A stretch of 9,058 bases of DNA from Bacteroidales bacterium. Lineage in GTDB: Bacteria; Bacteroidota; Bacteroidia; Bacteroidales; P3. This document shows, one piece after another, positions 4,878-9,058 of this stretch. A program made the position numbers and the translations under genes. The stretch is taken from positions 1 to 9,058 of the forward strand of contig JAFWOP010000153.1 of the NCBI GenBank assembly GCA_017545365.1, written 5' to 3'. Position 1 is the stretch's first letter; the number at the start of each line of letters is the position of its first letter. The notes below the pieces were generated by a model, which was given only the letters and a program-made list of their open reading frames with translations, had not been told where the DNA came from and ran no database searches.

Positions 4878-4939
4878 TTTTCATTGCGATGAAAAGAATC
4901 TTTCATTGCGATGAAAACATTTAACCATTGCGATGAAAA
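4878..4939. promoter_or_regulatory. Three 15-bp elements at exact 22-bp spacing, candidate operator array
   Basis: The 15-mer TCATTGCGATGAAAA occurs at 4881-4895 and 4903-4917, and again at 4925-4939 with a single change (first base C). The starts are exactly 22 bp apart, about two turns of the helix, so bound proteins would lie on the same face. Each element has dyad symmetry around TGCG. In the copy nearest the promoter the arms are TTTTCAT/ATGAAAA (perfect, 4878-4895); in the middle copy they shrink to TTTCAT/ATGAAA, and in the far copy to CAT/ATG. The array ends about 155 bases upstream of the GH26 start and some 118 bases upstream of its -7 box. It sits downstream of the terminator of the preceding unit, so it most likely serves the mannan operon as an activator or repressor site. 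The regulator is not in the window. Confidence 0.75.
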
Positions 4940-7280: not shown

Positions 7281-9058
7281 TTATCGTTGGCCGAAAGGAG
7301 CAGGCTCGTAGTTGGAGATGGGGAGGTGGAAGCGCATAAGGCTGTCGAGCGAATGCGTAGGCGCAGGACTATCAGCAGGGAGGGGTTGACGGCTGAATGT
7401 AGCGAAATAGAGCAAGCAGGCATCGCGCCACCAACGGGCATCCATAGCCTGCTGGCGGAAGCGCTGTAACTGACGTTCGTAGCGAAGGTTATCGACGTAG
7501 GGCATCATCTTTTGCCAAACACCAAGAGCATATTCAGCCTCACGTACGCCTCGGTCGTAATGCCAGCAAAGGCGCTGCCAAAGATTCTGCGAGTGCCCTT
7601 CAGCGTCTTTCCAATCAGGACGGGTGAACGTCCAAGGAAGATGATGGAACCAAAGGATATACTCCTCAGGACAAGTAAGCGGATTATTGTAAAGGGCGCA
7701 AAGGGAATCGCCATACTGCGCTACGGCTCCGCTTCCTTGCAAAGTACGATCGAAGCCGATACCAAGGCTGTCAGCACGATGATAATAAGGAGGTGTCCAG
7801 TCAGGACGTGCTCCACGTGGGCTGCACCAAGGCTCAGGGCCATAATGATGTCCCCAAGCAAAGAGATGATGAAGCCCCATCGGCATCATGTAATCGACAG
7901 CAGCTTCGTAGGAACGAAGCAGGAGATCCGTCATGGGCTCGACAAAACGAGGGTCTGCGGTAAACGTCATTGTCAGCCACTCACGAGCAATCTGAGCAGG
8001 AGGGAGCGTCGGATCCTGCGCCAATCGCCCAAAGGCATACCAATTTGCCTGCGCCATATCGCTTCCACACCAATTCGTATCATCGCCGATATTCGCCACT
8101 CCCGCAATGGCGGGAAAATTCTTCGAGGGCAAACGCTTGAAGAACTCACTCCATTGCACAGCGAGGAAGACTGTTTGAATGCTCTGTCCCAAATACTCCT
8201 GCGTAATTTGCAGCTCGGGCATGACGCGCGTATGCTTCATCGAGAAGAGCAGAGGACTGAGCGGCTCGCGAGGCTGAAAATCGACAGGGCCATTCTTCAC
8301 TTGCAAGATGACGTTGTCGCGGAACTGTCCGTCAAGAGGCATGAATTCATCGTAAGCCTGGCAGGCACGATCTGGGCTATTGGGAGCATAGACAAAAGCG
8401 CGCCACATGACAATTCCTCCGTAGGGTGCTAATGCATCAGCCAACAGATTCGCTCCATCCGCGTGCGTGCGTCCGAAATCCATAGGTCCAGGCTCTCCCT
8501 CGCTATTCGCTTTCACAAGAAATCCGCCAAAATCAGGTATAATAGAGTAGATTTCGGACACCTTCTGTCTCCACCATTCCCCCACCCGACTATCAAGCGG
8601 GTCAGCCGTAGGTAATTCGCCCAAAGCCTGAGGCGTAGCAAAGTTCACAGAAAGAAACACACGAATGCCATACGGACGTAATTCGCTGGCTATGACAGCT
8701 GCTTTAGTCAGCATAGCCGAAGTAAGCATGATAGGCTTGGCATTCACGTTGTTGAGTACCGTTCCATTAATGCCTATCGAGGCACATGCACGGGCATACT
8801 CGGCATAGCGGGACGAAACGGAATCGGGCAATTCATCCCATCGCCAAATAGAATGTCCGGCATAGCCGCGCTCTATGGTGCCGTCGGGGTTATCCCAGTG
8901 GTTGAGAAGGACGAGAGAGGAAGAATCTGAGAATCTCTGACTCGTTGACTCGTTGACTTGTTGACCTTCTCTAAGCCACAAGGCATGGCCGTCTTCATCA
9001 GGCGGAACAGCTCTCCCCGTACAAGACAATAATAATGAAAAATGAAAAATGAAAAATG
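7281..9058 (-). CDS. GH67 alpha-glucuronidase lipoprotein, 5' end beyond window, N-terminal domain largely missing
   Basis: GH67 enzymes remove 4-O-methyl-glucuronic acid from the non-reducing end of xylo-oligosaccharides. The catalytic barrel begins at LLNHWDN and keeps the signatures IERGYAG, GINGTVLNNVN, ADPLD, LVKANSEGEPGP (probable general acid Glu), VKNGPVDFQPREP (catalytic Asp) and LQITQEYLG (catalytic Glu). The C-terminal helical domain continues to the stop (GHHYGPEPWCS, YYHRADSLGIGFDRT, TCPEEYILWFHHLPW). The only start codon inside the window is a TTG at 9029, but the frame stays open to the window edge and reads FFIFHFSLLLSCTG, a lipoprotein signal, so the true start lies outside. 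Family members have about 140 residues between the WLRY motif and NHWDN; here there are about 25. The linker (8910-8969) is partly an 8-bp tandem repeat. It may be an active trimmed enzyme, a decaying gene or an assembly collapse. It heads the unit with the barrel and BACON genes. Confidence 0.9.
   Translation of the reverse strand, partial: FFIFHFSLLLSCTGRAVPPDEDGHALWLREGQQVNESTSQRFSDSSSLVLLNHWDNPDGTIERGYAGHSIWRWDELPDSVSSRYAEYARACASIGINGTVLNNVNAKPIMLTSAMLTKAAVIASELRPYGIRVFLSVNFATPQALGELPTADPLDSRVGEWWRQKVSEIYSIIPDFGGFLVKANSEGEPGPMDFGRTHADGANLLADALAPYGGIVMWRAFVYAPNSPDRACQAYDEFMPLDGQFRDNVILQVKNGPVDFQPREPLSPLLFSMKHTRVMPELQITQEYLGQSIQTVFLAVQWSEFFKRLPSKNFPAIAGVANIGDDTNWCGSDMAQANWYAFGRLAQDPTLPPAQIAREWLTMTFTADPRFVEPMTDLLLRSYEAAVDYMMPMGLHHLFAWGHHYGPEPWCSPRGARPDWTPPYYHRADSLGIGFDRTLQGSGAVAQYGDSLCALYNNPLTCPEEYILWFHHLPWTFTRPDWKDAEGHSQNLWQRLCWHYDRGVREAEYALGVWQKMMPYVDNLRYERQLQRFRQQAMDARWWRDACLLYFATFSRQPLPADSPAPTHSLDSLMRFHLPISNYEPAPFGQR
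8939..8966. repeat. 8-bp tandem repeat inside the GH67 coding sequence
   Basis: The plus strand reads GACTCGTT, GACTCGTT, GACTTGTT, GACC: three and a half 8-bp units. They encode part of the linker QQVNESTSQ on the minus strand, just where the GH67 N-terminal domain should be. Because eight is not a multiple of three, gain or loss of one unit would shift the frame. An 11-mer from the repeat, GACTTGTTGAC, recurs at 7260-7270 just past the gene's stop codon. Confidence 0.85.
9034..9058. repeat. 7-bp tandem repeat (TGAAAAA) at the start of the GH67 gene
   Basis: The dinucleotide TG recurs at 9036, 9043, 9050 and 9057, giving about three and a half units of TGAAAAA up to the window edge, where the array may continue. 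On the minus strand it encodes the hydrophobic FFIFHF of the probable signal peptide. Such repeats are also common in Bacteroidota intergenic DNA, so the true start may lie within or beside it. A 7-bp unit changes the frame when copy number changes. Confidence 0.75.

Follow-up and report, generated by a model that had tools for sequence, protein, structure and literature searches.

The gene at 7281..9056 (minus strand) of the stretch of DNA analysed here encodes a GH67 alpha-glucuronidase without the GH67N domain, and a short linker partly encoded by a tandem repeat stands in its place, which raises the question of how the domain came to be lost and whether the repeat had any part in the loss. 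The whole stretch, 9,058 bp in length and called the window below, is G000:C46:108853-117910, G000 being its own genome, a draft of 3.14 Mb in 54 contigs that is 88.8% complete; the start of the GH67 gene falls just beyond the window edge. The window copy was compared with those of three sister genomes (G003, G016 and G011, whose GH67s are 98%, 95% and 89% identical to it) and with a catalogued protein, P0001, that is 98% identical. Overall, we hold with considerable confidence that the gene would encode a working, lipid-anchored GH67 whose ancestor lost GH67N, that its linker and signal peptide became repeat-encoded later, and that the repeat in the linker belongs to an octamer family entering coding sequence in frame at tolerant sites.

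Domain content and catalytic residues of the trimmed GH67

The assignment was made from the ORF, the Pfam matches, alignment to the structures 1gqi and 1h41, and an AlphaFold model. Pfam searches of the window protein returned GH67M (PF07488; E 5e-127, 423.8 bits) and GH67C (PF07477; E 8e-78, 261.5 bits), and GH67N (PF03648) was not found in it; nor was GH67N found in the 88.8% complete genome G000 by a search that was positive in 3 of 14 control genomes. Against the window protein, the Cellvibrio chain of 1gqi can be matched only from its residue 137 on, and by comparison with the GH67s of Cellvibrio (1gqi, 1h41) and Geobacillus (1k9d, 1mqr) the missing domain is the one between the first strand and the barrel. 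PF03648 is present in the solved GH67 enzymes and is not taken here as required for the catalytic family. The first strand itself, EDGHALWLR (8970..8996, minus strand), is kept in the sequence and in the model despite the loss of the domain that would normally come next. It is followed by a linker of 20 residues (residues 30-49; 8910..8969, minus strand), EGQQVNESTSQRFSDSSSLV, which was read from the ORF translation and compared among relatives. About half of this linker is encoded by an octamer array, reported by TRF as TGACTCGT x3.5 at 8938..8965 (no strand assigned; TCAACRAG on the coding strand), that belongs to a genome-wide family. Allowing at most two mismatches, the octamer chain gave two overlapping matches in the window and none in 200 shuffles, well above random expectation, and in the GH67 linker it is present as a single arm.

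In the 1gqi alignment, Glu186 (8499..8501), Asp259 (8280..8282) and Glu287 (8196..8198; all minus strand) are the equivalents of Glu292, Asp365 and Glu393, which we take to be the catalytic residues of the Cellvibrio enzyme, with Glu292 as the catalytic acid. All three are invariant across 100 homologue rows, and the E292A entry 1h41 has alanine opposite Glu186. The preliminary description of this locus had claimed that the motif and the catalytic barrel are kept while the N-terminal domain is missing, that the reading frame is intact with the catalytic residues present, and that the linker is encoded in part by an 8-bp tandem repeat, and these claims agree with the results above.

The AlphaFold model (pLDDT 92.7) gives the block containing the motif strand (residues 21-30) a mean pLDDT of 89 and the linker blocks (31-40 and 41-50) means of 59 and 76, respectively. 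Its first aligned residues, 21-23, fall opposite residues 3-5 in nine GH67 structures, a placement toward which the full-length GH67s included in the model's alignment may have biased the motif; in this model the EDGHALWLR strand appears to dock on the catalytic core. An earlier model built from 13 closely related sequences reached a pLDDT of 54 and was set aside. The signal peptide of the window protein ends in a lipobox-like LLSC, unlike the Cellvibrio and Geobacillus GH67s, and judged from its sequence the protein is most likely a working enzyme, predicted to be lipid-anchored; as a GH67 it would free (4-O-methyl)glucuronic acid from xylo-oligosaccharides. At a surface-loop site (8111..8137, minus strand), G003 and G016 carry 54 additional bp, split by the aligner into 20 + 34, that are absent in G000 and look like another dispersed element.

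Upstream of the GH67 gene lie a GH43-like gene and an MFS-type transporter (both named by eye), and downstream lie a gene for a 210-aa protein without a Pfam match and then BACON, GH26, GH130, MFS and GDSL-lipase genes (by Pfam), a neighbourhood consistent with the use of xylan and mannan. The window also contains a 22-bp tandem repeat (TTTCATTGCGATGAAAACAATC) at 4879-4939, which is 66 bp longer in G003 and 44 bp longer in G016, and a 70-bp direct repeat in two copies at 1-138. At C46:115340 (window ~6488), G003 has 1573 extra bp whose first bases match the G000 flank, possibly a tandem duplication.

The TTTTTCA heptamer and the signal peptide

A TTTTTCA heptamer array, found by TRF at 9034..9058 (no strand assigned), encodes FFIFHFS, the hydrophobic core that precedes LLLSC in the signal peptide, and an inverted partner arm lies ~60 bp upstream, just outside the window (C46:117970-118004). 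The two arms fold as one hairpin of -21.2 kcal/mol (z -5.6; no equally stable fold in 200 shuffles). The upstream arm is the source of an ATG that is in frame (MKNKV...) in G003 and G011, where the hydrophobic core comes from the other arm, and P0001 uses this ATG in frame too. G000 has one 7-bp copy fewer than G003 and its upstream ATG is therefore out of frame, so that among ATG, GTG and TTG the sole in-frame start is a TTG, MQRYLFFIFHFSLLLSC. Where the others have the heptamer, G016 has an octamer, CACTCCTG.

A change by one unit of 7 or 8 bp alters the reading frame, and the one heptamer copy by which G000 falls short of G003 is enough to put the ATG of G003, G011 and P0001 out of frame, leaving the TTG, as would be expected if the copy numbers of the heptamer in the signal peptide and of the octamer in the linker formed a phase-variable switch that toggles the enzyme. 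We consider such a switch unlikely, since each array has only ~3-4 copies, fewer than typical contingency loci have, the difference in heptamer copies is seen between species and not within one population, and linker length does not differ among G000, G003 and P0001. Far less probable still is a decaying pseudogene: the lost domain, the repeat-encoded stretches and the out-of-frame ATG of G000 would fit decay, but the catalytic residues are invariant in 100 rows, the frames are stop-free in the window genome and in three sisters at 89-98% identity, and a whole clade of intact trimmed proteins exists.

In G000, 1.004 Mb were scanned for ATG codons that derive from an arm, share their frame with a TTTTTCA arm and have 80 or more open codons. 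Nine entries at eight places came out; the window GH67, with its ATG out of frame, is not one of them. Five signal-peptide candidates were picked by eye (L193:3567-4655, L215:11352-12335, L157:18440-19999, L053:3539-5191 and L219:17261-18058), and each has a Pfam match (DUF6340, DUF4296, RicinB lectin, GH76 and OMP barrel; for the third, only the first 520 codons were covered). Among the remaining entries, inspected likewise by eye, two minus-strand ones look spurious, and the start of one more probably lies further downstream. From this inspection, five genes seem to owe both their start codon and their signal-peptide core to the paired arms of a TTTTTCA hairpin.

Trimmed relatives and the order of events

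The GH67s of G003, G016 and G011 are as short as the window copy, and P0001-P0013 also keep the motif followed by a short linker. Full-length GH67s have ~130-150 residues before HWDN, as compared to 43-84 in the 16 measured of the 17 trimmed proteins displayed, the seventeenth, P0009, having DHWDN. Many full-length Bacteroidales GH67s also have no precomputed PF03648 match because their N domain has diverged; it is the length before HWDN that separates trimmed from full-length proteins. Further trimmed groups have either the motif and a linker or a signal peptide joined straight to the barrel. In P0142, P0146 and P0216, GH67s without the N domain are fused to GH8 or SGNH esterase-like domains. 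The domain is absent throughout clade A, to which the window copy belongs (11 dereplicated sequences in the tree), and in clade B and part of clade C the EDGxxLWLR motif has been lost as well, so the motif is not needed everywhere.

A tree was built from the catalytic domains of 95 GH67s, 51 of them trimmed and 44 full-length; in it the trimmed proteins form three separate groups, and the trimmed state takes three changes. The starred branches force three changes, 0% of 200 bootstraps give one, and a single trimmed clade is rejected (p-AU 0.013). For these counts P0027 and L035 were scored as full-length and the fusions P0146 and P0216 as trimmed; the 5'-truncated fragments P0232, P0139 and P0046 and the long branches L038 and L039 were left out, an earlier tree having had 100 rows. 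These data indicate that GH67N was probably lost at least three times. Loss is preferred over gain because the domain occurs in the solved enzymes and in outlying rows, the root of the tree not being inferred; alternatively, the three changes could be one loss and two regains. Among the matches listed for open-licence PMC papers, the titles and opening parts of abstracts contain no description of a trimmed GH67 without the N domain. It would follow from the sequences that a GH67 is able to do without the N-terminal domain of the solved structures, and natural trimmed enzymes make the role of GH67N testable.

Among the sequences inspected, the octamer linker is limited to G000, G003 and P0001, with (TCAACRAG)3 in the linker DNA of both G000 and G003. 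At the same spot G016 has an imperfect CGTTAAA heptamer chain, G011 has no recognisable repeat, and deeper relatives have other linkers; most clade A members have a linker without the octamer, and by eye no octamer remnants were seen in the linkers inspected other than those of the window, G003 and P0001. In this clade, as read from these sequences, the loss of the domain preceded the arrival of the repeat, because the relatives share the trimming but have other linkers, and in G016 another repeat. The search for the junction in related genomes that the preliminary description had proposed thus found the octamer linker in G003 and trimmed copies with other linkers in G016 and G011. A natural domain-trimmed GH67 and a shortened spacing before the barrel, both of which it had put forward, are borne out by the equally trimmed GH67s of the sisters and of the whole of clade A and by the lengths given above. 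Its further claim that the domain had been replaced by a repeat-derived linker was not upheld, the loss being older and the linkers of most clade members having no octamer.

The position of the repeat at the junction could also suggest that the N domain was deleted by recombination between repeat copies, with the octamer as the scar. This is very improbable, as the order of events is the wrong one: G011 and G016 share the loss with no recognisable repeat and with another repeat, respectively, and the octamer was found in 5 of the 150 genomes searched, whereas all of clade A shares the loss. A scar would also predict octamer remnants in the linkers of most clade A members, and none were seen by eye in the linkers inspected beyond the three named above. 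Least probable of all is the assembly artefact that the preliminary description had allowed for, in which collapse of the tandem repeat lying exactly at the junction, in a draft of 54 contigs, would have joined distant pieces and removed the domain, since the array is only 28 bp, G003 and P0001 have the same junction, and G016, G011, P0005-P0013 and others are trimmed to the same degree but have quite different linkers.

We therefore return to an ancestral loss followed by the arrival of repeats. An ancestor of the window GH67 would have lost GH67N and would have retained the first strand (EDGxxLWLR) on account of its apparent docking to the catalytic core; the barrel and the C-terminal domain are complete, and we propose that a short linker was therefore enough. 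Later, in a few sister species, the linker and the signal peptide would have become encoded by dispersed tandem-repeat families of 7-8 bp.

Octamers in coding sequence and known repeat systems

The octamer family (TTGACYYG) reads VNKSTSQQ and is stop-free in that direction. Its 21-mer gave 112 matches in G000, 82 in G003, 128 in G011, 118 in G016 and 5 in G017 (overlapping matches counted). The 145 remaining genomes of the 150 searched, among them 14 that belong to the same genus, gave none, as did a reversed-pattern control. Numbers of repeat families differ between sisters, G017 having only these 5 octamer matches and 239 matches to a GTTAAAC chain, for which the other seven genomes searched gave 49 (G016), 43 (G003), 21 (G000), 1 (G001) and 0 (G011, G005 and G015). 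The GH67 linker of G016 is not among the GTTAAAC matches because it is too imperfect.

The frame of octamer runs was scanned in 1.004 Mb of G000 (C46, C21, C36, C20 and C53), a run being counted as in frame when 40 or more open codons of that frame flanked the array on each side. In these contigs, of which C21, C36, C20 and C53 had been picked for their octamer hits (as had some of the G003 pieces below) and C46 had not, 25 of 40 octamer runs, or 20 of 31 loci, lie in open frames and 15 runs lie outside them, as compared to 27 of 125 other 7-8 bp arrays; the difference is significant by Fisher's test for runs, those inside one element being non-independent (p 3e-6), and for loci (p 1e-5). In C46 alone the counts are 11 of 11 octamer runs versus 14 of 39 other arrays. 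The stop-free direction is the one read in 21 of the 25 in-frame runs. In the part of G000 examined, the octamer, which the preliminary description had likened to intergenic DNA, is thus not mainly intergenic. Random 29-bp positions fall in comparable open frames at a higher rate (2377 of 3000), and octamers are therefore still less frequent in coding DNA than random placement would predict. Among the octamer runs in the examined pieces of G003 and G011, 10 of 12 lie in open frames, and a 30-kb piece of G016 had no octamer runs.

Ten ORFs were scanned with Pfam, eight of them carrying octamers. A Pfam domain spans the array in six of the eight (AroA, a TonB receptor, a periplasmic binding protein, an Lnb membrane domain, GT2 and GH18), and in the other two the array lies outside the Pfam matches (PQQ_2, GT1-like). 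The comparison of G003 with G000 showed another in-frame octamer-like insert, of 51 bp. An ORF for an FtsX-family permease (L051:1070-4288, that is C46:221070-224288) contains three in-frame 7-8 bp arrays between hydrophobic-looking stretches.

The gene for AroA (EPSP synthase; L051:14611-15969 = C46:234611-235969), identified by Pfam and by comparison with the sisters, carries two octamer inverted-repeat inserts in G000. They are ~90 bp each and 90% identical to each other over 94 bp, and each has two octamer arms in inverted orientation with a spacer between them, with folds of -54 and -51 kcal/mol (RNA parameters, short flanks included, without a shuffle control). The comparison covered five species and proteins P0236-P0355. 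At site 1 the insert is present in G000, G003 and G011 and absent in G016 and G017; at site 2 it is found in G000 only, with a two-unit stretch in G003, and a target-site duplication is not obvious by eye at the G000/G011 boundary. Octamer peptides of differing lengths occur in 10 of the 21 AroA proteins displayed, of which P0238 and P0243 may belong to G000 itself, and at site 2 more distant homologues have peptides such as NSEFRIQNSEL, as an AATTCAG heptamer would encode (seen at the protein level only). P0238 (348 aa) is identical to the G000 AroA over 77% of its length and misses the part with site 1, and annotation pipelines may miscall octamer-bearing genes of this kind.

We propose that the octamer family would enter genes in frame at tolerant loops and linkers, in some cases with two inverted arms around a spacer, the GH67 linker being one landing site; the inserts themselves may be near-neutral. 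Tentatively, and at somewhat less than even chances in our estimate, the 7-8 bp repeats of this clade could act as small mobile coding modules, with octamers repeatedly supplying stop-free loop peptides to core enzymes at reusable permissive sites and the TTTTTCA hairpin serving as a portable signal peptide, whose ATG would come from one arm and whose hydrophobic core from the other, as seems to be so for the GH67 of the sisters and for five further genes. A very short repeat family of narrow distribution is thus found within coding sequence, and sister species that differ insert by insert offer a natural system for the tolerance of a core enzyme to foreign peptides and for repeat movement. 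No description of repeats in coding genes of Bacteroidetes was found among open-licence PMC papers, as far as titles and the starts of abstracts go.

Several known systems were compared with the octamers. A REP/RAYT transposase system was rejected, as no match to the Y1 transposase (PF01797) was found in G000, 88.8% complete, by a search positive in 5 of 14 control genomes. According to the accessible text of PMC4679880, the TAACTGA heptamers of Beggiatoaceae are mainly intergenic and occur also in five Bacteroidetes, and work cited there holds that units divisible by three are the likeliest in coding DNA. Those heptamers and the octamers are alike as short dispersed tandem units of patchy phylogenetic distribution; in contrast to the mainly intergenic sets described in that text, most octamer runs examined here lie in open coding frames, which for a unit of 8 bp is contrary to the divisible-by-three expectation. 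The short tandemly repeated repetitive sequences of cyanobacteria, so far as the sources available describe them, are likewise short tandem units dispersed through the genome. In the accessible text of PMC2229807, Rickettsia palindromic elements are reported in frame in 19 protein reading frames, with one element-bearing enzyme still active at altered affinity. These elements, like intragenic bacterial MITEs, are described as small dispersed inverted repeats in frame in conserved protein genes, and the octamer likewise has many dispersed copies (112 matches; 31 loci in 1.004 Mb) and an in-frame insert in the conserved AroA that is absent from relatives. Compared with the elements as described there, octamer arms are tandem arrays, many copies are single arms, the phylum is different, and one and the same site holds different repeats in sister species. 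By analogy, Rickettsia palindromic elements would be the closest precedent for the octamers, which resemble them in their effect on proteins.
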